Source: Herbidospora sakaeratensis (GTDB taxonomy: Bacteria > Actinomycetota > Actinomycetes > Streptosporangiales > Streptosporangiaceae). From it: a stretch of DNA of 64,000 nt. Positions 35,072-48,987 of the stretch are shown in pieces. The stretch's first letter is position 1, and every line of letters starts with the position of its first letter. Made by a program: the position numbers and the translations under genes. Below the pieces are notes generated by a model that saw only the letters and a program-made list of their open reading frames with translations, made no database searches and was not told the origin of the DNA. The DNA lies in contig NZ_BBXC01000007.1 of the NCBI RefSeq assembly GCF_001570525.1, positions 485,364 to 549,363 on the forward strand, in the 5' to 3' direction.

Positions 35072-35131
35072 TCGTGCTGACCCGGCGCTGCGTGCAGATG
35101 CCTGACTAGCCGGGCGGGCATTCGAGATGCT

Positions 35132-35175
35132 CCGTGACCCGCATGCCTGGGGCTAGGCGTGCGGGTCACGGTTTT
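35132..35175 (+). terminator. Strong intrinsic terminator after the metallopeptidase gene
   Basis: CCGTGACCCGCATGCCT pairs with the downstream AGGCGTGCGGGTCACGG (one mismatch pair in a 17-bp stem) around a GGGGCT loop, and TTTT follows at 35172-35175. This is the only hairpin plus T-run terminator noticed in the window. Confidence 0.9.
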
Positions 35176-35189
35176 GTCCGGGCTCTGGG

Positions 35190-35217
35190 CCCGAGCCCGG
35201 CACGTGCCGGGCTCGGG
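35190..35217. repeat. Perfect 28-bp palindrome without loop
   Basis: CCCGAGCCCGGCAC is followed immediately by its exact reverse complement. It begins 15 bases after the terminator's T-run and ends 56 bases before the next gene. It could be a second terminator hairpin (with a small forced loop), a cruciform or a dimer operator for the gene at 35274. Confidence 0.7.
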
Positions 35218-35273
35218 GCGTGCGATTCTCGTCGCCCTCCAACCTTTTGCGGCGGTGGCGCGTCTCACCAGTC

Positions 35274-35837
35274 ATGATCAAGCGAATCATTTCAATCGCC
35301 GCCGTCGTCGCGGCCGTGGGCGCCTTGACGCCCGCCACGGCACAGGCATCGGCCGGGCAGGTGCTCAAGCTGCGCAAGGGACTGACGATCACCCTGCCGA
35401 ACGCCTGGAAGGTGCACGGCAAGGGCGACTTCACCTACGTGGTCGCCGGTAAGTGCAAGAAGCTCCATCAGCCCGGCTGTCACCAATTCTCGATCTTCGG
35501 CCCGAAGGGCATCGCCATAGGGGATGAGCTGTTCGAGCCCTACACGGGCAAGTCGCCCTACTACCCTGCCACCGACGTGCAGCCGTGCCCGCTGAACGCG
35601 AAGTGGAGCTACGGTGGCGGCGCCAAGCTCCTCACGTCCGGCTATCGCGAGATCGGCAAGGGGCACAAGGCGCAGTACCGCGCCTGGCGGATCACGTGCG
35701 TCGGGAACGACTCGTCCAAGGTGAAAGCGACCTTCATCCAGCGCGAGTGGCTGCTGCCGAAGTCCAAGATCCTCGTCGTCGACAAGTTCAGCACTGCCGG
35801 CCTGTCCGAGGTGCTCACGAACGCGGTCTGGCGCTGA
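35274..35837 (+). CDS. Small secreted protein of unknown function
   Basis: A 187-residue protein. ATG 35274 gives MIKRIISIAAVVAAVGALTP-ATAQASA, a clean Sec signal peptide cleaved near residue 25; upstream in-frame starts would spoil it. The mature part has four cysteines (KCKKLHQPGC, QPCPLNAK, ITCVGND) that could form two disulfides, and mixed charged/aromatic beta-like sequence. No family recognised. It stands alone between a double hairpin and the STM4015-type genes. Confidence 0.7.
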   Translation: MIKRIISIAAVVAAVGALTPATAQASAGQVLKLRKGLTITLPNAWKVHGKGDFTYVVAGKCKKLHQPGCHQFSIFGPKGIAIGDELFEPYTGKSPYYPATDVQPCPLNAKWSYGGGAKLLTSGYREIGKGHKAQYRAWRITCVGNDSSKVKATFIQREWLLPKSKILVVDKFSTAGLSEVLTNAVWR

Positions 35838-36008
35838 CCGATCGGCTGATCACCGGCGCTCGGGTACCTCAAGCCGGAACTGGCCTCGTCCGACGGGCAG
35901 GCCATGACGGTTCGAAAGGGAATCCGGCCACGATCTCCGGGCAGCTTCGATCACGAAATGTGGGCCAGATCGCTGATTTGTCGCCGCGTTCTGGTAGGAA
36001 CAGGGCCC

Positions 36009-36980
36009 ATGCTGACAATCCTCCCGGAGAACATCCACCCTGACCCGTGGGACCTCTACGACGAGACCTACGCCGGTCTGGACGTCTGCGTCTTCCCGCC
36101 GGACGACGACGACGACGAGAAGCTCCCGGCCGCCGGGTCGGTGGCGTGGCGGATCGCCGAACCCGACGCCTACGACGCCGAGGAGGGCGCGTTCGCCGGG
36201 ACCCTCCAGGTGTTCCTCGACCAGGTCGCGACCGAAGAGGTGCGGGCGCTGGTCATCGGGTGCTGGGAGCAGGCGTACGACACCGACTCCGCCGCGATCG
36301 TCACCCTGTTGGCCGAGAACGCCAAACGGTTCCCGGCGCTGCGGGCGATCTTCCTGGGCGCGATCCAGTCGGAGGAGGCGGAGATCTCCTGGATCCAGCA
36401 GTCCGACGTCACCGCGCTGCTGACCGCCTTCCCGCAACTGGAGCGGCTGGAGGTGCGCGGCGGCAGCGGCCTGGCGCTCTCGCCGGTCCGGCACGAGAAC
36501 CTGCGGGTGCTGCGGTTCGAGACCGGCGGCCTGCCCGCCGAGGTGGTGCGCGCGGTCGCCGCGTCCGACCTGCCCGCCCTTGAGCACCTCGACCTGTGGC
36601 TCGGCATCGACAACTACGGCGGCGACTCCACCGTCGCCGACCTGGCCCCGATCCTGGCCGGCGACCGGCTGCCCGCCCTGAAGCACCTGGGCCTCCAGGA
36701 CAGCGACCACCAGGACGAGATCGCCGCCGCCGTGGCGGCCGCCCCGATCGTGGCCCGCCTCGACGTGTTGTCGCTGGCCATGGGGACGCTGGGCGACGAG
36801 GGCGCCGAGGCGCTGCTCAGCGGCCAGCCGCTGAGCCACCTGAAGATGCTCGACCTGCGCCACAACTACGTGACCGACCCGCTGGCCGAGCGCCTGCGCG
36901 TCTTCGTCGGCGACGCCGAGCTCGACCTGGAGGAGCGCAAGGAGCGCGACGACTGGATCTACGTGTCGGTGGCCGAGTGA
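36009..36980 (+). CDS. STM4015-family leucine-rich-repeat protein, copy A
   Basis: A 323-residue soluble protein of the STM4015 family, first of four tandem paralogues. The N-terminus is acidic (PPDDDDDEKLPAAG). The shared core runs from EEVRALVIGCWEQAYD through EISWIQQSDVTALLTAFPQL and LRVLRFETGGL, then LPALEHLDLWLGIDNYGGDS, and ends in LRR-like units (LPALKHLGLQDSDHQDEI, LDVLSLAMGTLGDEGAEALL, LKMLDLRHNYVTDP). The last residues are WIYVSVAE, a tail shared by all copies. ATG 36009 has AGGAA eight bases upstream. The family is known only from conserved context with STM4011-4014; its role is unknown, presumably protein binding. The stop overlaps copy B (GTGA). Confidence 0.85.
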   Translation: MLTILPENIHPDPWDLYDETYAGLDVCVFPPDDDDDEKLPAAGSVAWRIAEPDAYDAEEGAFAGTLQVFLDQVATEEVRALVIGCWEQAYDTDSAAIVTLLAENAKRFPALRAIFLGAIQSEEAEISWIQQSDVTALLTAFPQLERLEVRGGSGLALSPVRHENLRVLRFETGGLPAEVVRAVAASDLPALEHLDLWLGIDNYGGDSTVADLAPILAGDRLPALKHLGLQDSDHQDEIAAAVAAAPIVARLDVLSLAMGTLGDEGAEALLSGQPLSHLKMLDLRHNYVTDPLAERLRVFVGDAELDLEERKERDDWIYVSVAE

Positions 36981-37840
36981 CCCACGAGTTCTTCAGCGAC
37001 GTGTCCGACGGTGTCTGGACTCTCCAGGCGATGGAGGAGGACGACGACGTCCTCGCGGAGATGGACGCCGTCTTCGAGCGGGGCGACACCGACAAGGTGG
37101 TCGCCGTCCACGTCGACTCCTGGCCCGAGATGTACGAGGAGAGCTCGGCGGCCATCGTCGAGAAGCTGGTCGCCAACGCGCACCTGCTCCCCGGCCTGCG
37201 CGGCCTGTCCCTGGGCCACGTCGACCCGGAGTGGTGCGAGATCTCCTGGATCCAGCTCAGCGACCTCACGCCGCTGCTGACCGCGTTTCCCGGCCTGGAG
37301 CGCCTTGACCTGCGGGGCGGCGACGGGCTGGCGCTGACCCCGCTCCGGCACGAGAGCCTGCGGGTGCTCCGGGTGGAGTGCGGCGGCCTGCACAGTTCGT
37401 TCGTCCGGTCGCTCGCCGCCTGCGACCTGCCCGCGCTGGAGCACCTGGAGCTCTGGCTGGGCGTCGAGCGCTACGGCGGGAACACCTCGGTCGCCGACCT
37501 GGCCCCGATCCTGGCCGGTGACCGGCTGCCCGCCCTGAGGCATCTGGGGCTGCAGGACAGCGAGATCCAGGACGAGATCGCCGCCGCGGTGGCGTCCGCG
37601 CCCGTCGTGGCCCGGCTCGACGAACTCGACCTCTCGATGGGCACGCTGACCGACGCCGGGGCCGAGGCGCTGCTCGACGGCCAGCCGCTCAGCCACCTGA
37701 TGGTGCTCGACCTGCACCACAACTTCCTCAGCGACGCGATGGCCGAGCGCGTCGAGAAGGCGCTTCCGGGGGTCGACGTCAAGCTGCACAACCGCCTCGC
37801 GCCGCGCGACGACCGGTTCTACGTGGCGGTGTCCGAGTGA
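36977..37840 (+). CDS. STM4015-family leucine-rich-repeat protein, copy B (short N-terminus)
   Basis: A 287-residue paralogue starting at GTG 36977 inside the stop of copy A. It lacks the ~35-50 N-terminal residues with the GLPVxxF/AW segment seen in the other copies and begins MTHEFFSDVSDGVWTLQAME. The core is intact: DKVVAVHVDSWPEMYEESSA, CEISWIQLSDLTPLLTAFPGL, LPALEHLELWLGVERYGGNT, LPALRHLGLQDSEIQDEI, and the tail RFYVAVSE. The short N-terminus could mean loss of one structural element; the gene is otherwise undamaged. GTGA overlap with copy C again implies coupled translation. Confidence 0.83.
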   Translation: MTHEFFSDVSDGVWTLQAMEEDDDVLAEMDAVFERGDTDKVVAVHVDSWPEMYEESSAAIVEKLVANAHLLPGLRGLSLGHVDPEWCEISWIQLSDLTPLLTAFPGLERLDLRGGDGLALTPLRHESLRVLRVECGGLHSSFVRSLAACDLPALEHLELWLGVERYGGNTSVADLAPILAGDRLPALRHLGLQDSEIQDEIAAAVASAPVVARLDELDLSMGTLTDAGAEALLDGQPLSHLMVLDLHHNFLSDAMAERVEKALPGVDVKLHNRLAPRDDRFYVAVSE

Positions 37841-38784
37841 CCTCGCTCAGCCTGCCGCTGTACCCCCGGCAGAACGACGACCACCGGAAGCGCTATGCCA
37901 ACCTGCCGGTCGTCGGCTGGTACGGCGACGATCCCGGGGAACCTCCCGCAGACAGCCCCGGAGCCTGGCACCTGTCGGTGTTCGAGACGGATTTCGGCAA
38001 GCTCATGGACGCCTTCTTCGAGCGGGTCGACACCGAGACGGTGCCGGCCCTCGTCATCGGCGACTGGCGCGACATGTACACGGACAGCTCGGCGCCCATC
38101 GTCGAGAAGCTGGTCGCCAACGCCCACCGGCTGCCCGCCCTCCGGGCGCTGTTCCTGGGCGCGACGACGGGCGAGTGGTGCGACATCTCCATGATCCAGC
38201 AGAGCGACGTCACCGCGCTGCTGACCGCGTTCCCCGACCTGGAACGCCTGGAGATCCGGGGCGGTGAGGGACTGGCTCTCAGCCCGGTCCGGCACGAGAA
38301 GCTGCGCATGCTCCGGGTCGAGAGCGGCGGTCTGAGCGGCGCGTTCGTCAGGGGAGTCGCCGCCTGCGATCTCCCGGCGCTGGAGCACCTGGAGCTCTGG
38401 CTCGGCGTCGAGGAGTACGGCGGCGACTACACCGTCGAGGACCTCGCGCCGATCCTGAGAGGCGACCGGCTGCCCGCCCTGCGGCACCTGGGCCTGCAGG
38501 ACAGCGACCGCCAGGATGAGATCGCCGCCGCCGTCGCGGCCGCCCCGGTCGTGGCCCAATTGGAGAACCTCGCCCTGTCGATGGGCACGCTGACCGACGA
38601 GGGCGCGGAGGCCCTGCTCGGCGGCCAGCCGCTGACCCACCTCGACCAGCTCGACCTGCACCACCACTTCCTGAGCGACCCGATGATGCAGCGCGTCGAG
38701 AAGGCGCTGTTCGTGGTGGGCGTCGACCTCGGCGACCGCCCGTACGACGACGACGGCTGGTTCTACGTGGCGGTGGGCGAATGA
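37837..38784 (+). CDS. STM4015-family leucine-rich-repeat protein, copy C
   Basis: A 315-residue paralogue from GTG 37837. It has the fuller N-terminus (YANLPVVGWYGDDPG, GAWHLSVFE), then ETVPALVIGDWRDMYTDSSA, CDISMIQQSDVTALLTAFPDL, LRMLRVESGGLSGAFVRGVA, LPALEHLELWLGVEEYGGDY, LPALRHLGLQDSDRQDEI, and the C-terminal WFYVAVGE. DNA and protein similarity to copy D is high in the second half, pointing to duplication or gene conversion between C and D. ATGA overlap with copy D. Confidence 0.85.
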   Translation: MTSLSLPLYPRQNDDHRKRYANLPVVGWYGDDPGEPPADSPGAWHLSVFETDFGKLMDAFFERVDTETVPALVIGDWRDMYTDSSAPIVEKLVANAHRLPALRALFLGATTGEWCDISMIQQSDVTALLTAFPDLERLEIRGGEGLALSPVRHEKLRMLRVESGGLSGAFVRGVAACDLPALEHLELWLGVEEYGGDYTVEDLAPILRGDRLPALRHLGLQDSDRQDEIAAAVAAAPVVAQLENLALSMGTLTDEGAEALLGGQPLTHLDQLDLHHHFLSDPMMQRVEKALFVVGVDLGDRPYDDDGWFYVAVGE

Positions 38785-39698
38785 CGATCTCCCTCGACCT
38801 GCCCCGGCACACCGACGACACCGACGTCTACTACCGCCGCTACGCCGGCCTGCCGACGGTCGACTTCAACGGCAAGGCCGACCACCCGCCGGGCGAGGTG
38901 GCCTGGGAGGTGGGCTCCTGGGAACTGGCCGACTTCTACGACGCCGTCGACAGCCGCCAGGTGCGCGCCCTCGTCGTCGGCGGCTGGGACGCCGACCCCC
39001 ATCAGGTGGTCGAGGACCTGGTCGCCGCGGCCCCCCGGCTGCCGGCGCTGCGCGCGCTCTTCTTCGGGGCGATCCCGCAGGAGGCGCAGGAGATCTCCTG
39101 GATCCACCAGACCGACGTCACCCCGCTGCTGACCGCGTTCCCGGATCTGGAACGCCTGGAGACCCGCGGCGGCATGGGCCTGCGTCTCTCGCCGGTTCGC
39201 CACGAGCGGTTGCGCATGCTCCGGGCCGAGAGCGGCGGCCTGGACGGCGACTTCGTGCGCGGCGTCGCGGCGTGCCGGTTCCCCGCGCTGGAACACCTGG
39301 AGCTCTGGCTCGGCGTCGACGAGTACGGCGGCGACTACACCGTCGAGGACCTCGCGCCGATCCTGACCGGCGACGACCTGCCTGCCCTGAAGCACCTGGG
39401 CCTGCAGGACAGCGACCGTCAAAACGACGTCGCCGCCGCCGTCGCCACCGCGCCGATCGTGGCCCGGCTCGACAGCCTCGCCCTGTCGATGGGCACGCTC
39501 ACCGACGAGGGCGCCGAGGCCCTGCTCGGCGGCCAGCCGCTCACCCACCTGCGCCGGCTCGACCTGCACCACCACTACCTGAGCGACGCCATGATGGCCC
39601 GGTTGTCCGCCGCTCTCGCCCCGGTCGAGCTCGATCTGGAGTCCCAGGAGGACCCGGAGGAGTACGACGGCTGGCTCTACACCGCGGTGAACGAGTGA
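38781..39698 (+). CDS. STM4015-family leucine-rich-repeat protein, copy D
   Basis: A 305-residue paralogue from ATG 38781. The N-terminus holds RYAGLPTVDFNGKADHPPGE and VAWEVGSWE, the form closest to what I recall for the STM4015 family. The core: RQVRALVVGGWDADPHQVVE, QEISWIHQTDVTPLLTAFPD, LPALKHLGLQDSDRQNDV, LDSLALSMGTLTDEGAEALL, and the tail WLYTAVNE. The stretch LEHLELWLGV-(E/D)-EYGGDYTVEDLAPIL is nearly identical to copy C. GTGA overlap with the ATP-grasp gene links the repeat proteins to the enzymes. Confidence 0.86.
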   Translation: MTISLDLPRHTDDTDVYYRRYAGLPTVDFNGKADHPPGEVAWEVGSWELADFYDAVDSRQVRALVVGGWDADPHQVVEDLVAAAPRLPALRALFFGAIPQEAQEISWIHQTDVTPLLTAFPDLERLETRGGMGLRLSPVRHERLRMLRAESGGLDGDFVRGVAACRFPALEHLELWLGVDEYGGDYTVEDLAPILTGDDLPALKHLGLQDSDRQNDVAAAVATAPIVARLDSLALSMGTLTDEGAEALLGGQPLTHLRRLDLHHHYLSDAMMARLSAALAPVELDLESQEDPEEYDGWLYTAVNE

Positions 39699-40729
39699 TC
39701 GTCGTCGGCACCCCCGGAGACCGCCGCGCCGACCTGTTCGGCGCGGCGGCCCGCGCCCACGGCCTGGGCGAGATCACCGTGGTCCCGTGGACGGAGGTGC
39801 TGACCGGCGCTCCGCTCGCGTTCTCGGGCCTGGTCCGGGTCGACTCGCCCGGCGAGTCGGCCGAGGCCGACGCCCTGCTGCGGGGCGCGGGCGACCCCAC
39901 CCGCGTCGGGGGAGGGGCGACCTGGTACACCCGGTTCGTGGACGGACTCGGACGGGTGGCCGGGGCGGGCGGCGAACTCCTGGCCAACGTCGAGGAGATC
40001 GCCGTCATGTTCGACAAGCGACGCTGCCACGCCCTGCTCGCCGGGGCGGGCCTGCCCGTGCCCGGAGGCGTGACCGTGACCTCCTACGGCGAGCTGCGCG
40101 ACCAGATGCGGGCACGGTCGTGGCCCCGGGTGTTCGTCAAGCCCGCCCACGGCAGTTCCGCGTCGGGGGTGATCGCCTTCGAGACCTCCGGGACCCGCCT
40201 GCGGGCCGTCACCTCGGCCACCGAGGACCTGCGGAACTCGCTGGCGGTCCGGACGTACACCGACGAATCGACCGTCGCCCGGATCGTCGACGCGCTGGCT
40301 CCTGACGGGCTGCACGTCGAGCGCTGGTTCCCGAAGGCGTCGGTGCCGGGCGGCTGCTTCGACCTGCGGGTGGTCACCGTGGCCGGGCGGCCGACCCACG
40401 CGGTGGCGCGGGTGAGTCGGGTGCCGATGACCAACCTGCACCTCGGCGGGAGACGCGGCGACGTGGGGGAGATCCGGGCCCGGCTGGGCGCCGGCCGGTG
40501 GGACGAGGCGATGGAGATCTGCGCCCGCACCGCCGCCTGCTTCCCCGGCAGCCTGACGACCGGCGTCGACCTGATGATCGGCGCCGACTGGCGGTCGATG
40601 GCGGTCGCCGAGGTCAACGCCTTCGGTGACCTGCTGCCCGGCCTGGGCGCGCTCGACGGCAGCGGCCTGACGACCTACGAGTGCCAGGCGCGGGCCATCG
40701 CGGCGGGGTGGCGACCGTGCGCGACATGA
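39695..40729 (+). CDS. STM4014-family ATP-grasp protein
   Basis: A 344-residue protein. An N-terminal Rossmann-like part (MIVVGTPGDRRADLFGAAAR) is followed by an ATP-grasp domain from about residue 105: DKRRCHALLAGAGLPVP, WPRVFVKPAHGSSASGV with the nucleotide-binding Lys, GLHVERWFPKASVPGGCFDLRVV, and MAVAEVNAFGDLLPGL with metal-binding Glu/Asn. ATP-grasp enzymes ligate a carboxylate to an amine or thiol through an acyl phosphate. The substrate is unknown; the locus contains no obvious precursor peptide. Start GTG 39695 overlaps copy D; stop overlaps STM4013 (ATGA). Confidence 0.88.
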   Translation: MIVVGTPGDRRADLFGAAARAHGLGEITVVPWTEVLTGAPLAFSGLVRVDSPGESAEADALLRGAGDPTRVGGGATWYTRFVDGLGRVAGAGGELLANVEEIAVMFDKRRCHALLAGAGLPVPGGVTVTSYGELRDQMRARSWPRVFVKPAHGSSASGVIAFETSGTRLRAVTSATEDLRNSLAVRTYTDESTVARIVDALAPDGLHVERWFPKASVPGGCFDLRVVTVAGRPTHAVARVSRVPMTNLHLGGRRGDVGEIRARLGAGRWDEAMEICARTAACFPGSLTTGVDLMIGADWRSMAVAEVNAFGDLLPGLGALDGSGLTTYECQARAIAAGWRPCAT

Positions 40730-41523
40730 ACACGGTCGTGGGGACCCACGACATCCTGCTCGTCACCCTCGACACGCTGCGGTGGGACGTGGCCGAACGG
40801 CTCATGGCCGAGGGGCGCACGCCGGGCTTCGCCCGGTTCCTGACCTGGGAGAAGCGGCACAGCCCCGGCAGCTTCACGTTCGCCTCGCACGCCGCCATGT
40901 TCGCCGGGTTCCTGCCGACGCCGGTCACCCCCGGGCCGCACACCCGGCCGTTCGCGGCGTCGTTCCCGGGCAGCGCGACCACCGCGCCGCAGACCTGGGT
41001 GTTCGACGCGCCCGACCTGCCGACGGGGCTGGCGAAGGCCGGATATCGCACGGTCTGCGTCGGCGGGGTCGGATTCTTCAACCGGCTGAGCCCGCTGGGG
41101 TCGGCGCTGCCCGGCCTGTTCCAGGAGAGCCACTGGGCGCCCGAGTTCGGGGTGACCGCCCCCGACTCCTTCGAACGGCAACTCGACCGGGCCGAGGAGG
41201 TGCTCGACGGCGTGCCGGAACCGGTCTTCCTGTTCCTGAACGTCTCGGCGCTGCACCAGCCCAACCGCTTCTACCTGCCCGGCGCGGCCGACGACTCGAT
41301 CGAGTCGCACGCGGCCGCGCTGGAGTACGTCGACCGGCACGTCGCCCGGCTGTTCGCCCTGATGACCCGCCGCCGGCCGTGTTTCGTGATCGTCTGCTCC
41401 GACCACGGCACCGCCTACGGCGAAGACGGCCACGTGGGCCACCGGCTCGCGCACGACGTCGTCTGGACCGTGCCCTACGCAGAATTCGTCCTCGACCGGA
41501 GCTCCGATGATCAGTCCGTATGA
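40726..41523 (+). CDS. STM4013-family alkaline-phosphatase-fold hydrolase
   Basis: A 265-residue protein of the alkaline phosphatase/sulfatase superfamily. ILLVTLDTLRWD holds the first metal-binding Asp (residue 16) and the pairing CSDHGTAYGEDGHVGHR the second-site Asp/His cluster near residue 225. The nucleophile is probably a Ser or Thr in PGSFTFASHAAMFAG; the sulfatase CxPxR motif is absent. It has no signal peptide, so it acts in the cytoplasm, hydrolysing or transferring a phosphate-type ester. ATG 40726 is chosen because it overlaps the STM4014 stop; an in-frame GTG at 40717 is possible. Its 3' end overlaps STM4012 by 17 bp. Confidence 0.87.
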   Translation: MNTVVGTHDILLVTLDTLRWDVAERLMAEGRTPGFARFLTWEKRHSPGSFTFASHAAMFAGFLPTPVTPGPHTRPFAASFPGSATTAPQTWVFDAPDLPTGLAKAGYRTVCVGGVGFFNRLSPLGSALPGLFQESHWAPEFGVTAPDSFERQLDRAEEVLDGVPEPVFLFLNVSALHQPNRFYLPGAADDSIESHAAALEYVDRHVARLFALMTRRRPCFVIVCSDHGTAYGEDGHVGHRLAHDVVWTVPYAEFVLDRSSDDQSV

Positions 41524-42757
41524 GAGTTACGTCTACGCGTACCCCCACAAGACCGCCTACCGACCGCTCGACCCGCGCCCGGCGCTGACCGACGTGTGGC
41601 GGGGCGAGCGGGCCGGGTCGTTCTACGCCCACATCCCGTTCTGCGAGATGCGCTGCGGCTTCTGCAACCTGTTCACCCGGACGGGCGCCCCCGAAGAGCT
41701 GGTGGCGGCCTACCTCGACGCGCTCGAACGCGAGACGCTCGCCCTGTCGGACGCGCTCGACCCGGCGTTCACCACAGCGGCGATCGGCGGCGGCACGCCC
41801 ACCTACCTGAGCCCGGCCGAGCTCACCCGGTTGTTCGACGTCACCGGCAAGATCACCCCTTGGGGCGAGATCCCGCTGTCGGTGGAGACCTCCCCGGCGA
41901 CCGCGACGCCCGACCGGCTGGCCGTGCTGAAGGAACGCGGCACGACCCGGGTCTCCATCGGGGTGCAGAGCTTCGTCGACGAGGAGGCCCGCGCGGCGGT
42001 CCGGCCCCAGAAGCGCGCCGAGGTCGACGGGGCCCTCGACGCGATCAGGGCGACCGGCTTCCCGATCCTGAACATCGACCTGATCTACGGCATCGACGGC
42101 CAGACGGCCGCCTCGTGGCGGCACTCCCTGGAGACCGCGCTGCGCTGGGCCCCCGAGGAGCTCTACCTCTACCCCCTCTACGTACGCCCCCTCACCGGCC
42201 TCGGCAAGATCGGCCGCGACTGGGACGACCAGCGGATGGAGCTCTACCGCGAGGGCCGCGACCTGCTGCTCGACCGGGGCTACGAGCAGGTGTCGATGCG
42301 CATGTTCCGGCTGCCCGGCACCGGGACCTCGACCGGCTACTGCTGCCAGACCGACGGCATGGCGAGTGTGGGGTGCGGGGCCCGGTCGTACACGGGCACC
42401 CTGCACTACTCCCACGAGTACGCGGTCGGCGCGCGGCACGTACGGTCGATCATCGACGACTACGTGCGCCGCGACGACTTCACCGAGGCCCTGATCGGCT
42501 TCACCCTGGACGAGTCCGAGCGGCGGCGGCGGCACACGATCCAGAGCCTCCTCCAGAAGGACGGCCTCGACCTGGCCCTCTACCGGAGCCGGTTCGGCGG
42601 CGAGCCCGACGTCACGGCGGTGCCGGCCGAGTGGCTGGTCCGCGACGGCGACGTGCTGCGGCTGACCGGCGAGGGCCTGGCCCACTCCGACGCGGTCGGC
42701 CCGGCCCTGTTCTCCGCCGAGGTCCGCGCCCTGATGGCGGGCAACGACGCCCGATGA
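41507..42757 (+). CDS. STM4012-family radical SAM protein (HemN-like)
   Basis: A 416-residue radical SAM enzyme. The [4Fe-4S] cluster ligands are Cys46, Cys50 and Cys53 in FYAHIPFCEMRCGFCNLF, followed by AAIGGGTPTYLS and LSVETSPATATPDRLAVLKE, RVSIGVQSF and NIDLIYGIDGQT, all HemN-class motifs. A HemN C-terminal-like domain (RRHTIQSLLQKDGLDLALY, LTGEGLAHSDAVGP) follows. It resembles coproporphyrinogen dehydrogenase and HemN-like methyltransferases but belongs to the STM4012 group of unknown reaction. The surrounding genes rule out heme synthesis. Coupled to STM4013 (17-bp overlap) and STM4011 (4-bp overlap). Confidence 0.9.
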   Translation: MISPYESYVYAYPHKTAYRPLDPRPALTDVWRGERAGSFYAHIPFCEMRCGFCNLFTRTGAPEELVAAYLDALERETLALSDALDPAFTTAAIGGGTPTYLSPAELTRLFDVTGKITPWGEIPLSVETSPATATPDRLAVLKERGTTRVSIGVQSFVDEEARAAVRPQKRAEVDGALDAIRATGFPILNIDLIYGIDGQTAASWRHSLETALRWAPEELYLYPLYVRPLTGLGKIGRDWDDQRMELYREGRDLLLDRGYEQVSMRMFRLPGTGTSTGYCCQTDGMASVGCGARSYTGTLHYSHEYAVGARHVRSIIDDYVRRDDFTEALIGFTLDESERRRRHTIQSLLQKDGLDLALYRSRFGGEPDVTAVPAEWLVRDGDVLRLTGEGLAHSDAVGPALFSAEVRALMAGNDAR

Positions 42758-43614
42758 CGCACCTGACGATCCTCTATCGCGGGCCGCTGGCCAGCTGCGA
42801 CTACGACTGCGCCTACTGCCCGTTCGCCAAACGGCGGGACACCCCCGAGCAGCTGCGCGCCGACCGGGCGGCCCTGCTCCGCTTCACCGCGTGGACCGCC
42901 GAGCAGGACCACGAGGTGAGCGTGCTGTTCACGCCGTGGGGGGAGGGCCTGGTCAGGTCGTGGTACCGGGAGGCGATGGTCGGGCTCAGCCACCAGGCCA
43001 ACGTGCGCCGCGTGGCCGTCCAGACCAACCTCAGCTCCCGGACCGGCTGGCTCGACCGGGCGAACCCCGAGAAGCTGGCGCTCTGGGTGACCTACCACCC
43101 GACCCAGGTGACCTACGACCGGTTCCTGGCCAAGGTCACGGCGCTGCCGGTCCCCCACAGCGTCGGCGTCGTGGGCGACCCGGCCCATCTGGAGCACGCC
43201 CGGCGGCTCCGGAAGGACCTCCCGGCCGCCACCTACCTGTGGATCAACGCCGAGGAGGGCCGGACCTACACCGACGACGAGGCGGCCCGCTGGCAGGAGA
43301 TCGACCCGCTGTTCCACTACAGCCGCTTCCCGCATCTCAGCGCGGGCCAGGCGTGCCGGACCGGCGACACGGTGATCTCCGTTGACGGCGACGGGACGGT
43401 CCGGCGGTGCCACTTCATCCCGACGGTCCTGGGAAATCTCTATGACGGCACGTTCCGCGCCCGGCTGGGGCCGAGGGCCTGCCCGAAGCTGGAGTGCGAC
43501 TGCCACATCGGCTACGTGCACCTCGAACCGACCGGCCTGTACGACGTCTTCGCCGGGGGCGTGCTGGAACGTATCCCTCACAGGGTTCTCCCAGAACCGT
43601 CCAGGAAGCCCTGA
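42754..43614 (+). CDS. STM4011-family radical SAM protein
   Basis: A 286-residue radical SAM enzyme with CxxxCxxC at Cys15, Cys19 and Cys22 (LASCDYDCAYCPF). The short barrel has SVLFTPWGEGLVRSWY and VAVQTNLSSRTGWL. Five more cysteines cluster near the C-terminus (GQACRTGD, VRRCHFIP, RACPKLECDCHIGY), consistent with a SPASM-like auxiliary iron-sulfur cluster. Such clusters are common in enzymes that modify peptides or proteins. Last of the eight coupled genes; the ABC exporter begins 24 bp later. The reaction is unknown. Confidence 0.88.
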   Translation: MTHLTILYRGPLASCDYDCAYCPFAKRRDTPEQLRADRAALLRFTAWTAEQDHEVSVLFTPWGEGLVRSWYREAMVGLSHQANVRRVAVQTNLSSRTGWLDRANPEKLALWVTYHPTQVTYDRFLAKVTALPVPHSVGVVGDPAHLEHARRLRKDLPAATYLWINAEEGRTYTDDEAARWQEIDPLFHYSRFPHLSAGQACRTGDTVISVDGDGTVRRCHFIPTVLGNLYDGTFRARLGPRACPKLECDCHIGYVHLEPTGLYDVFAGGVLERIPHRVLPEPSRKP

Positions 43615-43638
43615 GCCGGAGGGCGCAGGCTCGGCCGC

Positions 43639-44508
43639 ATGATCGAAGTGACCCGGCTGAGCAGACGCCACGGCGACGTCGTCGCCGTCGACGACCTGAC
43701 GTTCGACGTGAAACCCGGCGCGGTGACCGGGTTCCTCGGCCCCAACGGGGCCGGCAAGACGACCACGATGCGGCTGATCCTCGGGCTCGACGCCCCGCAC
43801 GCGGGGAGCGCCCGGATCCTCGGCGCGCGCCTCGCCGACCTGCCCGAGCCGATGCGGGCGGTCGGGGCGCTGCTGGACGCGGCGGCCGTGCACCCCCGCC
43901 GGTCGGCCCGCGACCACCTGCGCTGCCTCGCGGTGAGCAACCGGCTCGGGCGGCGGCGGATCGACGAGGTGCTCGACCTGGTCGGGCTGACGGCGGTGGC
44001 GCACCGGCACGCGGGCGGCTTCTCGCTCGGCATGAAGCAGCGCCTCGGGCTGGCCGCCGCGCTGCTCGGCGACCCCGGCGTGCTGATCCTCGACGAGCCG
44101 GTCAACGGGCTCGACCCCGAGGGCATCGTCTGGATCCGCACCCTGCTCCGCGACCTGGCCGCCGAAGGGCGGACCGTCCTGGTCTCCAGCCACCTGATGG
44201 CCGAGACGGCGGTGACCGCCGACCGGCTGATCGTGGTGGCGCGCGGGCGGCTGATCGCCGACACCACCGTCGAGGCCCTCGCCCGGCCCGACGGGGTGCT
44301 GGTGCGCACCCCGGAGGCCCGCCGGTTCGCGCGGGCCCTCGTCGCCCACGGCGCCTCGGGGGTCGAGCCCGACGGCGACGAGCTCGTGGTGCGGGGGCTG
44401 GCGCCGAGGCGCGTCGGCGAGCTCGCCGCCGCCGAGGGAGTGGTCCTGTACGAACTGACGCCCCGCCGCGCGTCGCTGGAAGAGGCGTTCATGGAGCTGA
44501 CCCGATGA
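43639..44508 (+). CDS. ABC transporter ATP-binding protein (drug-exporter type)
   Basis: A 289-residue ATPase. Walker A GPNGAGKTT (about residues 36-44), signature FSLGMKQRLGLAAALLG, Walker B VLILDEPVNGLDPEGI and switch His in VLVSSHLMAE. The layout with an ~80-residue C-terminal extension fits BcrA/CcmA-type exporters. With the permease coupled downstream (ATGA) it forms a two-gene exporter. It starts 24 bp after STM4011 on the same strand and could be read through from that operon; GGAGG at 43619-43623 is too far for its own start. Confidence 0.9.
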   Translation: MIEVTRLSRRHGDVVAVDDLTFDVKPGAVTGFLGPNGAGKTTTMRLILGLDAPHAGSARILGARLADLPEPMRAVGALLDAAAVHPRRSARDHLRCLAVSNRLGRRRIDEVLDLVGLTAVAHRHAGGFSLGMKQRLGLAAALLGDPGVLILDEPVNGLDPEGIVWIRTLLRDLAAEGRTVLVSSHLMAETAVTADRLIVVARGRLIADTTVEALARPDGVLVRTPEARRFARALVAHGASGVEPDGDELVVRGLAPRRVGELAAAEGVVLYELTPRRASLEEAFMELTR

Positions 44509-45272
44509 TCGCCGCCATCCGCTCCGAATGGGCCAAGACGCTGACCACCCGGTCGAGCTGGTACACCCTGGCGGCGGTCATCGCGCTCGGCGCGCTGTTC
44601 GCGCTGCTGTTCGGCTACGCCGGCGCCGCCGAACACGCCCGGATGACCGCCGCCGAGCAGGCCGCCTACCGGCCCTCGCCCGACTTCCGGCCGCTGATCT
44701 TCGTGCAGATCGCCGTCGGCTACTTCGGCCTGCGCGCCTTCACCGTCGAGCACCTCACCCGGACGATGGCGCTGACCCTGACCACGGTGCCCCGCCGGGG
44801 CCGGGTGCTGGCCGCCAAGGCGATCGTCTGCGCCGGGCTGACGCTCGCGGCCGGGACGGTGACCGGGCTCGTCGTGGTCTTCGTCAACCGGGCCGTGCTG
44901 ACCTCGCGGCAGGTGCCCGTCAACACGCTCTCCGAGCCCGGCATGCTCCGGGTGCTGGCCGGGCCGGGGCTGCTGCTGACCCTGCTCGGCCTGATCGGCC
45001 TGGCCGTCGGCTGCCTGGTGCGCAGCACCTCCGGGGCGCTGGTCGTCACGATCGTGATGGGGGTGTTCGTCCCGGCGATGGCCTCGCTCTACCCCGAGTG
45101 GCTGGCCTGGCTGATCCTCAGCTACTGGCCGATCACGGCCGGGCTGCGGCTGCTCAGCCTCGACGCCGACCCCGACCTGCCGGGCCCGGCGGCCGGCCTC
45201 GCCGTGACCTGCGCCTGGGCCGTGATCCTGCTGGCCGCCGCGTACGCGGTCTTCCGGCGGCGGGACGCATGA
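44505..45272 (+). CDS. ABC transporter permease (ABC-2 type)
   Basis: A 255-residue membrane protein with about six hydrophobic segments (SSWYTLAAVIALGALFALLF, FVQIAVGYFGLRAF, IVCAGLTLAAGTVTGLVVVF, GLLLTLLGLIGLAVGCLV, ALVVTIVMGVFVPAMASL, GLAVTCAWAVILLAAAY). A large extracytoplasmic loop after TM1 is typical of ABC-2 permeases. It partners the upstream ATPase. Substrate unknown. ATG 44505 overlaps the ATPase stop. The two-component system starts 22 bp further on, an arrangement common for bacitracin/lantibiotic-type sensing exporters, though that role is not shown here. Confidence 0.88.
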   Translation: MIAAIRSEWAKTLTTRSSWYTLAAVIALGALFALLFGYAGAAEHARMTAAEQAAYRPSPDFRPLIFVQIAVGYFGLRAFTVEHLTRTMALTLTTVPRRGRVLAAKAIVCAGLTLAAGTVTGLVVVFVNRAVLTSRQVPVNTLSEPGMLRVLAGPGLLLTLLGLIGLAVGCLVRSTSGALVVTIVMGVFVPAMASLYPEWLAWLILSYWPITAGLRLLSLDADPDLPGPAAGLAVTCAWAVILLAAAYAVFRRRDA

Positions 45273-45294
45273 TGTGGGGGACGAAAGGGGCGTG

Positions 45295-45972
45295 ATGGAG
45301 CGGCTGCTGGTCGTCGACGACGAGCCGACGGTACGGGAACTGCTGTCGGCGACCCTGCGCTTCGCCGGGTTCGAGGTCGCCTCGGCCGCCACGGGGGCCG
45401 AGGCCGTCGAGGCGGTCCGGCTCTCCCGGCCCGACCTGATCCTGCTCGACGTGATGCTGCCCGACCTCGACGGCTTCCAGGTCGTCCGCCGGCTGCGCGA
45501 CCTGGCCCGGCCGCCGGTGCCGGTGTTGTTCCTGACCGCCCGCGACTCCCCGGCCGACAAGGTCACCGGCCTCACCCTGGGCGGCGACGACTACGTCACC
45601 AAGCCGTTCGACCTGCCGGAACTGCTGGCCCGCATCCGCGCGATCCTGCGCCGCACCGGCGTCCCGCACGCGCACGCCGTGGTCGTCGGCGACCTGGAGG
45701 TCGACGTCGAGGGCTGCCACGTGCGCCGGGCCGGGGTGACGGTCCGCCTGTCGCCCACCGAGTTCCGCCTGCTCAGCTACCTGGCCGAGCACGCGGGCCG
45801 GGTGGTGTCGAAGACCTCGATCATCGAGGACGTCTGGCAGTACGACTTCGCCGGCGACACCAGCATCGTCGACACCTACGTCAGCTACCTGCGCCGCAAA
45901 CTGGAGACCGGCGGCCCCCGGCTCATCCACACCGTCCACGGCGTCGGCTACGTCCTGCGCGAGCCCCGATGA
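45295..45972 (+). CDS. OmpR-family response regulator (TrcR/PrrA-like)
   Basis: A 225-residue two-domain regulator. The receiver has the acidic pair Asp8/Asp9 (VVDDEPT), phospho-acceptor Asp52 (LILLDVMLPD), FLTAR and YVTKPFD with the conserved Lys. The C-terminal winged helix has VRLSPTEFRLLSYLAEHAGRVVSK and VDTYVSYLRRKLE…VHGVGYVLR. ATG 45295 follows AAAGGGG by six bases; upstream in-frame starts lack this. It is coupled to the histidine kinase (ATGA) and 22 bp after the ABC permease, so it may control that transporter. Confidence 0.93.
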   Translation: MERLLVVDDEPTVRELLSATLRFAGFEVASAATGAEAVEAVRLSRPDLILLDVMLPDLDGFQVVRRLRDLARPPVPVLFLTARDSPADKVTGLTLGGDDYVTKPFDLPELLARIRAILRRTGVPHAHAVVVGDLEVDVEGCHVRRAGVTVRLSPTEFRLLSYLAEHAGRVVSKTSIIEDVWQYDFAGDTSIVDTYVSYLRRKLETGGPRLIHTVHGVGYVLREPR

Positions 45973-47609
45973 CCTCCCTGCGCGGACGCCTCCTCCTGAT
46001 CACCTGCGCGCTGCTGGCGGCCGGCCTCCTGCTGAGCGGCTCCATCGTCGTCGGCCTGCTCCGCTCGGGCCTGGTCGACCGCGTCGACACCCAGCTCCGC
46101 GTGTTCGGCGGCATCATCTCGGCCATCCCGCCCGTCCTCACCTCCCGCACTCCGGCCGACCGCGCGGCCGGCAACGCGCTGAGCACCAACCTCGACCTGA
46201 TCAACCGCCTGTACATCGCGGAACTCGGCCCCGACGGCAAGCCGATCTCGGAGGTCCGCCTCCCACCGGGCCCGGGCGGCCCCGAACTACCAGCCGACGT
46301 GAGCGCCGACCCCGGAACGGACAGTCGCGCGCCGACCGCCCGCAGTGATGACGCGCGCGGCCCGGAGACGGCCGCTCCCGAGACGGCCGCTCCCAAGACG
46401 GCCGCTCCTAAGCCGGGCGTTCCCACGCCGACCGCTCCCACGCCGACCGCTCCCACGCCGACCGCTCCCACGCTGGGCGCTCTCGCGCCGGGCGGGGGTG
46501 CCGAGTGGGCTGTTCGGGACCACCAGCCCTTCGAGGCGCGGGATTCCGCAGGCGGGGCCGACTGGCGGGTGCTCGTGGTGCCGCGTCAGGGGACCGGCAC
46601 CTTCGTGGTCGTGGCGGCCTCGCTCGACGCCGTGCAGGCCACGGTCGGGCGGGTGCGCGTCGTCTACGTCGTCTCCGGACTGGGGTTGCTGGCGCTGCTC
46701 ACGCTCGCGGGGTGGTTCGCCATCAGGGCCGGGTTGCGGCCGCTGCGGGCCATCGAGGAGACCGCCGCCGCCATCGCCTCCGGGGATCTCGCGCGGAGGG
46801 TGCCCGACGCGGCTCCCGACACCGAGGTCGGGCGGCTGTCGGCCGCGCTCAACGGCATGCTCGGGCAGGTCGAGCGGGCCTTCGCCGCGCGGACCGAGTC
46901 GGAGGCCCGGCTGCGGCGGTTCGTCGCCGACGTCGGGCACGAGCTGCGCACCCCGCTCGTCGGCATCAAGGGGTTCTCCGAGCTCTACCGCATGGGCGGG
47001 CTGACCGAGGTCGCCCCCGCGATGGCCAGGATCGAGAGCGAGGCCGGGCGGCTGGGCCGGCTCGTGGAGGACCTGCTGCTGCTCGCCCGCCTCGACGAGG
47101 GCGGCGCCGCCCTGCCGCTGGAGCTGGCCCCGATGGACCTGCGCACCCTGGCCGCCGACGTCCGCCTCGACCTGCGCGCCCTCGCCCCCGACCGGCCGGT
47201 CGACCTGACCGGCCCCGACGGCGGGCCGCCCGGCTCGGCCCCGGTGATCGGCGACGAGGCCCGGTTGCGCCAGATCGTCACGAACCTGGTCGGCAACGTG
47301 GTCGAGCACACCCCCGGCGGCAGCCCCGTGCGCATCGGGGTCGGCACCCGAGACGGCGAGGCGGTGCTCGTGATCGAGGACCACGGCCCTGGCCTCACCC
47401 CGGAGGAGGCCGCCCGGGTCTTCGACCGCTTCTCCCGCGCCGACGCCTCCCGCAGCAGATCGGGCCCCGGCGGCGCGGGCCTCGGCCTGGCCATCGCCCG
47501 CTCCCTGGCCGAAGCCCACGGAGGCCGCCTCGACCTCCGCACCGCACCAGGCCGGGGGGCCGCCTTCACCCTGGCGATGCCCGGTCAGGTCTCCTTTTCG
47601 GGGAAGTAG
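45969..47609 (+). CDS. Sensor histidine kinase with repeat-containing extracellular domain (TrcS/MprB-like)
   Basis: A 546-residue kinase. TM1 is near residues 8-30 and TM2 near 222-244, enclosing an extracytoplasmic domain of about 190 residues. HAMP follows (IRAGLRPLRAIEETAAAIAS), then the H-box RRFVADVGHELRTPL with phospho-acceptor His324, and the ATPase with N-box (RQIVTNLVGNVVEHT), EDHGPGLT and GGAGLGLAIARSL. The sensor domain contains a low-complexity run of eight 5-residue repeats (PETAA/PTPTA type, residues about 133-172), encoded by a 15-bp tandem repeat; this looks like a flexible linker insertion. Signal unknown. The 3' end overlaps the convergent DUF6745-like gene by 25 bp. Confidence 0.92.
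   Translation: MTSLRGRLLLITCALLAAGLLLSGSIVVGLLRSGLVDRVDTQLRVFGGIISAIPPVLTSRTPADRAAGNALSTNLDLINRLYIAELGPDGKPISEVRLPPGPGGPELPADVSADPGTDSRAPTARSDDARGPETAAPETAAPKTAAPKPGVPTPTAPTPTAPTPTAPTLGALAPGGGAEWAVRDHQPFEARDSAGGADWRVLVVPRQGTGTFVVVAASLDAVQATVGRVRVVYVVSGLGLLALLTLAGWFAIRAGLRPLRAIEETAAAIASGDLARRVPDAAPDTEVGRLSAALNGMLGQVERAFAARTESEARLRRFVADVGHELRTPLVGIKGFSELYRMGGLTEVAPAMARIESEAGRLGRLVEDLLLLARLDEGGAALPLELAPMDLRTLAADVRLDLRALAPDRPVDLTGPDGGPPGSAPVIGDEARLRQIVTNLVGNVVEHTPGGSPVRIGVGTRDGEAVLVIEDHGPGLTPEEAARVFDRFSRADASRSRSGPGGAGLGLAIARSLAEAHGGRLDLRTAPGRGAAFTLAMPGQVSFSGK
46365..46484 (+). repeat. 15-bp tandem repeat (8 units) inside the histidine kinase gene
   Basis: Eight 15-bp units in register with the reading frame: two of GAGACGGCCGCTCCC, two diverged AAG-type units, three of ACGCCGACCGCTCCC, one degenerate. 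They encode the proline/threonine/alanine pentapeptides of the sensor domain. Unit numbers could change by slippage without a frameshift. Confidence 0.9.
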
Positions 47610-48664
47610 TTCTCCTCGTTCACCCCGAACGTCCACGCCACACCCTGGCGGGCCCGCTGGACCCACGGCGGCACCCGCAGGAAGTAGGTGCGGAAGGTGC
47701 CGTCGGGCTCGGCGGTCGAGTTGACCACCTCGACCGTCACCACGTCTTCGTCGTCGGGCAGGCTGATGCGCCACAGGATGCCGGTCTCGTCGCGGTGGAG
47801 CGGGGTCGCGCCCGATTCGGACAGGTAGCGGTCGAAGCCGAAGTGTTCGAGCATGACCCGGCGCAACTCGGCGTTCTCCTCGTCGCGGATGCGCTCGGGG
47901 GTCAGGTCGGCCATTGACGCGACGAAGCCCTCGGGCACCGGCATGCCGTGCCACGACTCCAGCGCGAACCCGTCGGGGAAGACCAGCGCCGGGCCGTCGG
48001 AGCGGTGGAGGCGGCCCGCCTCGTCGAGGTGGAGCTCGGCCGGGCGCTCGCAGACGATGGCCGCGTTCGCATAGGGGAACCACCAGCCCGCGTGGCGGGA
48101 CACCCGGGTCAGCCCGGCCAGGCCGGGGGCGTCGGCGAAGGCCGACAACCAGGCGGCGTCGTGCTGGCCGAGCACGGCGTCGAGCGCGGCCTGGCGCAGC
48201 AGGTCGCCGGCCCCTTCGCCGCCGAGCACCGACAGGCCGCGGCGGATCTCCTGGACGACCGTGTTCACCCTCGGCCACAACAACCCGCCGGTCGACTCCC
48301 ACACCCGCGCCCACCCGGCCCCGCCGGTCTCGCGCAGCACGTCGGCGCGGGCCCACTCCCAGGGCTGGGTGCGCACCTCCTCGCGGACGGAATGGCCGAG
48401 CGGCTGGGCCAGCAGCGGCGCGGCCGACAGGATGAGCGAGCCCAGGCCGGCCTTGTTCAGCGCGTCGACGGCGGCCTCGCCGCCGTGGTGGATGGCGGCC
48501 GCCGCGGCGGCGACGACCGGCGACCCGGCCCACAGGATCACCGAGGGGGCGGCCAGCCCGGCGGCGGCGTAGGCCTCGCGGACGCCCGCCTCGGCCTCGG
48601 CGCGGTCGCCGGGGCCGGTCATGAAGGCGACGTCGGCCCAGGTCATGGTGGTCTCGACGCTCAT
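47585..48664 (-). CDS. DUF6745-like protein of unknown function
   Basis: A 359-residue soluble protein. The segment GRLHRSDGPALVFPDGFALESWHGMPVPEGFV (quoted in part: residues near 235 hold HRSDGPALVFPDG and WHGMPVP) is the hallmark I associate with DUF6745, a family of unknown function. The N-terminal half is alanine-rich and helical; the C-terminus is beta-like (GILWRISLPDDEDVVTVEVV). ATG 48664 shares one base with the upstream small gene's stop (TGATG), so the pair is an operon. A similar small-protein/DUF6745 pairing is something I recall in other actinomycetes, without firm support. Confidence 0.6.
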   Translation of the reverse strand: MSVETTMTWADVAFMTGPGDRAEAEAGVREAYAAAGLAAPSVILWAGSPVVAAAAAAIHHGGEAAVDALNKAGLGSLILSAAPLLAQPLGHSVREEVRTQPWEWARADVLRETGGAGWARVWESTGGLLWPRVNTVVQEIRRGLSVLGGEGAGDLLRQAALDAVLGQHDAAWLSAFADAPGLAGLTRVSRHAGWWFPYANAAIVCERPAELHLDEAGRLHRSDGPALVFPDGFALESWHGMPVPEGFVASMADLTPERIRDEENAELRRVMLEHFGFDRYLSESGATPLHRDETGILWRISLPDDEDVVTVEVVNSTAEPDGTFRTYFLRVPPWVQRARQGVAWTFGVNEENYFPEKET

Positions 48665-48960
48665 CAGTCGGCCACCACCCGGAACGAACCCGGCACGTAT
48701 TCACGCTGACGGACGATCCGGAACCAGCCCTTGGGCAGCGGGATCGCGGCGTGCTCCTCGTGCACCAGCCGGCCGCCCTCGGGCAGGTGGAGGTAGCCGG
48801 GGTAGAGGGTGCCGGGGCCGTGGAGCGCGTGGGCGTGGCCGGTGGCCTCGCCCAGGGCGAGCACGATGCGGCCCTTGTGGTCACGCGGCTCGGAGACGAG
48901 ACCGGGAGGCACCGACGCCTCGGGGACCGGCATGATCAGGATGTCACCCTGTCGGTACAT
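48664..48960 (-). CDS. Small beta-rich protein paired with the DUF6745-like gene
   Basis: A 98-residue protein beginning MYRQGDILIMPVPEASVPPG. It is predicted mostly beta, with GEATGHAHALHGPGTLY rich in His and a C-terminal WFRIVRQREYVPGSF. ATG 48960 has GGAAGG six bases upstream, better than the TTG two codons earlier. No domain recognised; the RQGD-start small proteins occur beside DUF6745 genes and in some phages. Translationally coupled to the 359-residue gene. Confidence 0.65.
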   Translation of the reverse strand: MYRQGDILIMPVPEASVPPGLVSEPRDHKGRIVLALGEATGHAHALHGPGTLYPGYLHLPEGGRLVHEEHAAIPLPKGWFRIVRQREYVPGSFRVVAD

Positions 48961-48987
48961 GACCAACCTTCCGTGTTCGGGGGTTGA

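Follow-up and report, generated by a model that had tools for sequence, protein, structure and literature searches.

The STM4011 to STM4015 protein families are represented in Herbidospora sakaeratensis by a compact gene cluster, in which the leucine-rich repeat (LRR) proteins of the STM4015 family end in an almost invariant glutamate and are encoded beside STM4014, a putative ATP-grasp ligase with a predicted LysX-like fold. The cluster occupies positions 36009-43614 of the window, this being the whole analysed stretch of 64,000 nucleotides of contig NZ_BBXC01000007.1. We put at about one half the probability that STM4014 charges the terminal Glu of STM4015 and that the two radical S-adenosylmethionine (SAM) enzymes of the set act afterwards; the broader statement, that the tail of STM4015 is the site of some reaction, is probable.

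The cluster consists of eight plus-strand genes, every adjacent pair of which overlaps (by 4, 4, 4, 4, 4, 17 and 4 bp). In the following list, bit scores refer to the NCBIfam profile named, and pLDDT is the predicted local distance difference test value of a structure model.

36009..36980, plus strand: STM4015 copy 1, LRR protein, C-terminus DDWIYVSVAE (NF038076, 371.7 bits)
36977..37840, plus strand: STM4015 copy 2, GTG start, C-terminus DRFYVAVSE (NF038076, 337.1 bits)
37837..38784, plus strand: STM4015 copy 3, GTG start, C-terminus GWFYVAVGE (NF038076, 360.8 bits; model pLDDT 93.2)
38781..39698, plus strand: STM4015 copy 4, C-terminus GWLYTAVNE (NF038076, 353.6 bits)
39695..40729, plus strand: STM4014, ATP-grasp ligase, GTG start (NF038074, 375.1 bits; model pLDDT 88.9)
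40726..41523, plus strand: STM4013, hydrolase or transferase of the alkaline phosphatase superfamily with a conserved Thr51 (NF038075, 402.6 bits)
41507..42757, plus strand: STM4012, HemN-like radical SAM enzyme (NF006067, 573.9 bits)
42754..43614, plus strand: STM4011, radical SAM enzyme, SPASM-like, with five extra conserved Cys (NF038073, 378.4 bits)

All eight proteins, some of which were entered one codon upstream of their start and in frame, score over the curated NCBIfam cut-offs of the STM4011-STM4015 families (275 bits for STM4015, 175 for STM4014, 250 for STM4013, 380 for STM4012 and 200 for STM4011). An earlier reading of the DNA, made from the sequence only, had described eight genes, seven overlaps and four STM4015 copies, and both the coordinates and the family scores agree with it. 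Relative to copy 3, the sequence identity is 58% for copy 1, 67% for copy 2 and 65% for copy 4, and a fifth copy lies away from the cluster in the same genome (contig C32:54935-55681). The nearest related loci belong to Herbidospora, with 85-95% identity in STM4011.

The architecture of STM4015 comprises an LRR body, an acidic linker of variable length and a hexapeptide, [YF]-V-A-V-x-E, placed at the exact end of the chain and found most frequently as Y-V-A-V-S-E. Among 183 copies distinct over their last 60 residues (leaving out open reading frames truncated at the edge of a locus and the small loci L083-L086, which are duplicates), the last residue is Glu in 182 and Arg in one. Further upstream, Val at position -3 is found in 168 copies, Ala at -4 in 152 and Trp at -8 in 112, and position -6 is occupied by Tyr in 160, by Phe in 20 and by Thr, Ser and Asn in one copy each. 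The mean column entropy of the tail is 0.82 bits, that of the linker immediately upstream 2.38 and that of the first 65 residues 2.02; at linker positions -18 to -7, Asp and Glu make up 36-39% of the residues, versus 16% in the body. For STM4014, STM4013, STM4012 and STM4011 of these loci, every terminal residue stays under 60%, the most frequent one being the Arg of STM4012 (51 of 86 sequences, with Cys in 25). A by-product of the ATGA or GTGA gene overlap was considered as the origin of the terminal Glu and rejected: all 16 copies that have no possible stop/start overlap end in Glu, with both Glu codons in use, and translational coupling is therefore not its cause.

The tail is also found beyond these 183 copies. 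Fourteen further rows were examined, of which the 13 closed copies were counted and a 29-bit N-terminal piece in the Embleya locus L116 was left out; all 13 end in Glu, including those of E. coli, Deinococcus, Streptomyces, Embleya and Calothrix. Copies of Streptomyces, Embleya and Calothrix that lie off the cluster retain the tail; the protein of Calothrix, a cyanobacterium, is STM4015-like but under the family cut-off (259 versus 275 bits), and no other cluster gene was found in the 8.1 kb of its surroundings. In Salmonella, E. coli and Methylobacterium the terminal Glu is retained and the aromatic residue is shifted. Moreover, five internally shrunken copies (L009, L031, L065, L072 and L103, of which L065 and L072 look related) retain such a tail. 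The fifth copy of H. sakaeratensis (L087) was taken as tail-less from its profile coordinates, a view that was rejected, as its C-terminus is LYVSVAE. In L116, at about 1489-2574, the N- and C-terminal parts of an STM4015 copy match in two different frames.

The STM4015 copies of this cluster are 287-323 residues long. As regards the body of the protein, the Pfam LRR matches are weak and all under the cut-off. The model of copy 3, built with 65 sequences, is nevertheless an LRR fold (pLDDT 93.2, predicted template modelling score 0.92); it matches a solved relative from Bacteroides fragilis (PDB 2ra8; profile E 5.2e-59, Foldseek E 5.1e-18) and also other LRR proteins, such as ribonuclease inhibitor. 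Positions 141, 142, 164, 190, 222 and 250, in or just after the strands, are kept or nearly so in eight sequences from other lineages, and positions 160 and 162 vary between phyla. This comparison, for which secondary structure rather than coordinates was used, suggests a common docking face on the LRR body.

The model of STM4014 (pLDDT 88.9) gave its lowest Foldseek E-values with DcsG, PsnB in complex with its precursor, DdlB and LysX. When the 50 matches listed are ranked by template modelling (TM) score, ArgX with LysW comes first (3vpb chain B, 0.64/0.77), followed by LysX/ArgX-LysW (5k2m, 0.61/0.74) and RimK-S6 (5zk6, 0.61/0.71), with DdlB at 0.61/0.66 and PsnB at up to 0.58/0.65. Residues D107, K108, K149, D292, E306 and N308 are conserved in 84 sequences, two of them from other phyla; in this and the other residue counts, rows covering less than 85% of the profile were dropped, which removed three of the five STM4014 rows from other phyla. 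It is because a near-invariant free terminal Glu adjoins a ligase of a carboxylate-activating fold class that charging of this residue is proposed.

That the five genes form one system can be regarded as practically certain, since STM4015, STM4014 and STM4012 occur in an identical set of 86 genomes in a sample of 150 genomes from 39 genera of the order to which H. sakaeratensis belongs (families counted over their curated cut-offs). STM4013 is found in those 86 genomes plus one (G354), and STM4011 is absent over its cut-off from one of the 86 (G356, with a 112-bit piece at a contig end) and present, as a partial gene, in one additional genome (G379). In a phylum-wide sample, STM4015 was detected in 6 of 296 genomes. 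Each positive genome contains one to eight STM4015 matches and usually one of each enzyme over the cut-off. The single system had been anticipated from the sequence, and the correlated rather than scattered occurrence of the families across genomes bears it out. The 80 related loci were collected through STM4011, so that gene linkage is partly built into them; the genome samples are free of this effect, and the Fisher values calculated for the co-occurrence take no account of kinship among the genomes.

The order 4015-4014-4013-4012-4011 is preserved in Methylobacterium, Deinococcus, Paenibacillus, Salmonella, E. coli and Streptomyces, and the complete ordered set spans four phyla (Actinomycetota, Pseudomonadota, Deinococcota and Bacillota). 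Unrelated genes that are neighbours by chance, an explanation for which no point in favour was found, are rejected by the co-occurrence across the 150 order genomes, as well as by this preserved order, and their probability is negligible. On a plasmid of Bacteroides finegoldii (L099, Bacteroidota) the set has decayed, STM4013 and STM4012 being present as terminal remnants only; the STM4015 of this locus has an N-terminal extension that, by eye, resembles a WGR domain. A Salmonella query that extends from 4015 into 4012 has matches in 154 of 5426 complete E. coli genomes, and in 153 of these the match covers 80% of the query or more; one of these 154 loci was inspected. The set adjoins typA in Salmonella (L100) and E. 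coli (L112), where a Cof-type haloacid dehalogenase (HAD) gene overlaps STM4011 and is the next one after the set, and in L099 a HAD-like stretch was recognized by eye downstream of STM4011 in one reading frame; HAD genes beside STM4011 may hint at a phosphorylated intermediate. Compared with the Salmonella set, the cluster of H. sakaeratensis has STM4015 in four copies, lacks a HAD gene next to STM4011 and is accompanied by a pair of associated genes nearby, described below. In a phage collection, STM4011 was found in two records, both labelled Salmonella, and STM4015 is present on one viral contig.

In three loci (L055, L078 and L080) STM4014 sits outside the locus of the other enzymes. The displaced STM4014 of these split genomes stands directly behind an STM4015 gene (L104 and L107) or behind a tail-bearing STM4015 remnant (L103), and another STM4015 stays ahead of 4013-4012-4011 in all three; the persistence of this pairing supports the charging of STM4015 by STM4014. 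Loss of STM4014 from L055, L066, L078 and L080 was rejected, as all four genomes carry it over the cut-off, and so was the assignment of L066 as a fourth split locus, a better profile having shown STM4014 in place.

Among the three remaining enzymes, STM4013 reaches 45 bits with the Pfam Sulfatase profile, and D16, T51, H177, D226, H227, H239 and H243 are conserved in it, T51 in at least 97% of 86 sequences. This Thr stands at what we take to be the position of the sulfatase nucleophile, placed by eye against the CxPxR motif, and the Cys or Ser that would give formylglycine is not found there. Because Thr replaces the sulfatase Cys or Ser at this position assigned by eye, STM4013 does not appear sulfatase-like, and its sequence suggests a phosphotransferase or phosphodiesterase instead. 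A PDB sequence search returned chance-level matches only for STM4013 and no relative for STM4011.

In both STM4012 and STM4011 the CxxxCxxC motif is retained in at least 97% of the sequences (83 and 87, respectively) and in all rows retained from other phyla. STM4012, with conserved C46, C50 and C53 and a GGGTP motif, is 28% identical to Salmonella HemN over 335 columns, and its PDB matches are HemN and the methyltransferase NocN; it remains under the equivalog cut-offs of hemN_rel (135.9 versus 205.4 bits), hemN (119.8 versus 324.95) and HutW (122.9 versus 400), and also under the HemW family cut-off. STM4011 conserves C201, C219, C243, C248 and C250 in addition to C15, C19 and C22, and its match to the Pfam SPASM profile is a weak one (16.2 bits versus a cut-off of 21.5).

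A modification pathway, which had been put forward from the sequence, is still the likeliest reading of this enzyme kit; the LRR proteins had been named as its possible substrates, and the conserved C-terminal tail now points to the site. In the scheme proposed here, STM4015 would be a dedicated protein substrate or carrier, made of an LRR docking platform, a flexible acidic linker and a free terminal Glu. By analogy with LysX/ArgX-LysW and RimK-S6, STM4014 and ATP would activate the carboxylate of this Glu and then join an amine to it, most likely an amino acid. STM4012 and STM4011 would then alter either the attached group or the tail by radical chemistry. STM4013, as a metal-dependent phosphotransferase or hydrolase, would remove or add a phosphate-type group. 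The outcome would be either a released product or the LRR protein itself as product. We infer every reaction of this scheme, as well as the order of the reactions. A more specific version, a carrier-based biosynthesis in which the acidic arm of the LRR protein is loaded at Glu and the radical SAM enzymes build a metabolite, a cofactor or a permanent modification, is offered tentatively, as we consider it rather doubtful. HemN catalyzes the oxidative decarboxylation of propionate side chains, and the Glu side chain is a propionate; in a variant drawn from this analogy, STM4012 could turn the side chain of the terminal or of the joined Glu into a vinyl group, with a loss of about 46 Da.

Several known systems can be compared with this scheme. 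RimK, an ATP-grasp ligase of a fold similar to that of STM4014, acts on the C-terminal Glu of ribosomal protein S6; unlike RimK and S6, the STM4014 set has a dedicated candidate LRR substrate and radical SAM partners. The graspetide ligases PsnB and MdnC, solved with precursor peptides, are also ATP-grasp enzymes of similar fold, but the STM4015 tail lacks the multi-residue pattern of acceptors and donors of the graspetides, the terminal Glu alone being near-invariant. A comparable layout is that of LysW with LysX/ArgX, where an ATP-grasp ligase of similar fold serves a carrier whose C-terminal Glu is preceded by an acidic stretch, in many cases with a Trp; according to excerpts of PMC10433800, LysX links the substrate, through its amino group, to the C-terminal Glu of LysW at the gamma-carboxyl, this Glu belonging to an acidic EDWGE motif. 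LysW is, however, a small zinc-binding carrier, whereas STM4015 has an LRR fold and a length of about 300 residues, and the radical SAM and phosphatase-fold partners of the STM4011-4015 set set it apart from LysW/LysX systems. Finally, according to excerpts of PMC9303977, the product of the pearlin systems (TglA/TmoA) is assembled at the C-terminal end of a carrier peptide of ribosomal origin, and one of these systems includes a radical SAM enzyme whose target is the added residue; the pearlin ligase uses aminoacyl-tRNA. No match to a peptide aminoacyl-tRNA ligase was obtained among the eight core proteins, the flanking genes not having been scanned for it.

A number of observations weigh against the charging of STM4015 at its Glu. 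The best Foldseek E-value of STM4014 is that of the D-cycloserine synthetase DcsG, and DdlB scores close to the ligases of protein carriers, so that a free small molecule may be the substrate of STM4014. Moreover, STM4014 is far under the cut-offs of LysX_arch (19 versus 275.6 bits) and rimK_fam (25 versus 143.4 bits). The tail itself, [YF]VAVxE, is not the EDWGE of LysW, its last five residues are modelled with a lower mean confidence (77), and one copy among the 183 (L019:4016-4921) ends in Arg, as RYVAVGR. Within the LRR, the strands are barely more conserved than the loops (1.16 versus 1.25 bits of column entropy, with 1.35 for the helices). Furthermore, the off-cluster STM4015 copies may be used unmodified, and no peptidase that would release a product was identified, the recurring neighbour families having been left unannotated.

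A rival reading is a scaffold, in which the tail of STM4015 would be an unmodified docking peptide gathering the enzymes, and these would act on a free metabolite. A conserved C-terminal peptide behind a flexible linker is also typical of a docking motif, and the resemblance of STM4014 to DcsG and Ddl fits with it; a docking motif, on the other hand, is not obviously in need of a Glu at the chain end so strictly (182/183), and one to eight STM4015 copies for usually one of each enzyme per genome fit a substrate or carrier better; the scaffold is regarded as possible but unlikely. A lower probability still is given to a product of the kind known as ribosomally synthesized and post-translationally modified peptides (RiPPs), for which the tail, or its Tyr and Glu, would be modified by the radical SAM enzymes and excised as a peptide or cofactor, in the manner of pyrroloquinoline quinone (PQQ), which is made from one Glu and one Tyr residue of PqqA. 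Tyr/Phe and Glu are indeed the most constant residues of the tail, and the set has a pair of radical SAM enzymes, of which STM4011 carries additional conserved Cys. The aromatic position is nevertheless taken by Phe in 20 and by Thr, Ser or Asn in three of the 183 copies, and this replacement of Tyr means that phenol chemistry is not needed in every copy; in addition, no protease or exporter was identified among neighbours whose families were left unannotated. The body of STM4015 is a conserved fold and not a leader peptide, and the short precursor of leader and core found in radical SAM RiPPs has no counterpart in these LRR proteins.

The sequence-only reading had also considered immunity-like receptors, and a role of this type, with the LRR copies recognizing different invaders, now looks very improbable. 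In its favour are the several diverged tandem copies and the patchy presence of the set, as among the E. coli genomes. The positions in and after the LRR strands that are kept across phyla, and not diversified, argue against such a role and, likewise, against diversified ligand binding by the copies, although the argument is a weak one; moreover, PADLOC gave only two stray matches (18.4 and 21.2 bits) for eight proteins, namely two of the four STM4015 copies, the four enzymes and the two associated proteins considered next.

The inventory of eight core genes stands as first read, but two further genes on the opposite strand (47585-48966) had been overlooked:

47585..48664, minus strand: gene of a DUF6745 protein (PF20530, 346.9 bits)
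48664..48966, minus strand: gene of a 100-residue protein, C-terminus RVVAD, with a one-base overlap with the DUF6745 gene

The 100-residue protein has no Pfam or NCBIfam match. Between STM4011 and this pair, at 43639-47609, ABC-transporter-like and two-component-like genes were recognized by eye; at many other loci DUF6745 abuts STM4011. In a neighbour count over 90 loci (the 80 found through STM4011 and 10 annotated records), DUF6745 is present in 76, in 73 with the 100-residue gene and in three alone, all of these at contig ends. Neither gene is found in the remaining 14, four of which (L016, L019, L066 and L076) stop within 1.2 kb past STM4011. Both genes flank the set in Deinococcus and Methylobacterium, and neither was seen at the Paenibacillus, Bacteroides, Salmonella or E. 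coli loci examined. In the order sample, the 100-residue gene occurs in 55 of the 150 genomes, all STM4015-positive, and a close DUF6745 in the same 55; in seven further genomes, the best DUF6745 match does not exceed 115 bits. In the phylum sample, the 100-residue protein is matched in 8 of 296 genomes (E up to 0.001): four matches are strong, three weak and one of 82 bits. The four strong ones all come from STM4015-positive genomes, and two STM4015-positive genomes lack the gene; the 82-bit relative (G028:C198:5215-5508) belongs to a genome with no STM4015 match. Both genes belong to the system as associated genes.

The 100-residue protein carries conserved His motifs (GHxH and HxEH) and has Asp as its last residue at all 73 loci, which come from three phyla, and the DUF6745 protein ends in Thr in 73 of 76 and in Ala in three. 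Since the whole 100-residue protein is highly conserved in the actinobacteria, their Asp ending alone says little, and the Deinococcus and Methylobacterium sequences are the more informative ones. This protein, with its terminal Asp, could serve as another acceptor comparable to STM4015. As to the remaining surroundings, a gene upstream of the cluster (32894-35071) has, by eye, a signal-like start and a HEWQH zinc-protease-like motif, and a relative of it is also found upstream in Herbidospora loci. No RNA element reached the gathering score in an Rfam scan of 34900-49200.

The five families had already been recognized by curators, as their NCBIfam names indicate, the family records consulted giving names only. 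In the open-access literature searched, no function was found for STM4011-STM4015, in agreement with the initial statement that no biochemical activity had been described: in the parts of the two sources concerned, STM4015 is mentioned in passing as a table row of a selection scan (PMC2784778) and STM4013, likewise in passing, as a table row of a sigma54 study (PMC3844500). The new elements are the tail with its terminal Glu, the fold resembling that of LysX, the retention of a 4015-4014 pair in the split loci and the extension by the DUF6745 and 100-residue genes. The set is widespread across phyla, with families named only after Salmonella genes, and a strict terminal Glu beside a LysX-like ligase turns this anonymous gene set into a biochemical question about one residue. 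If the proposed charging is true, a new carrier-protein architecture with radical chemistry would be added to bacterial metabolism.

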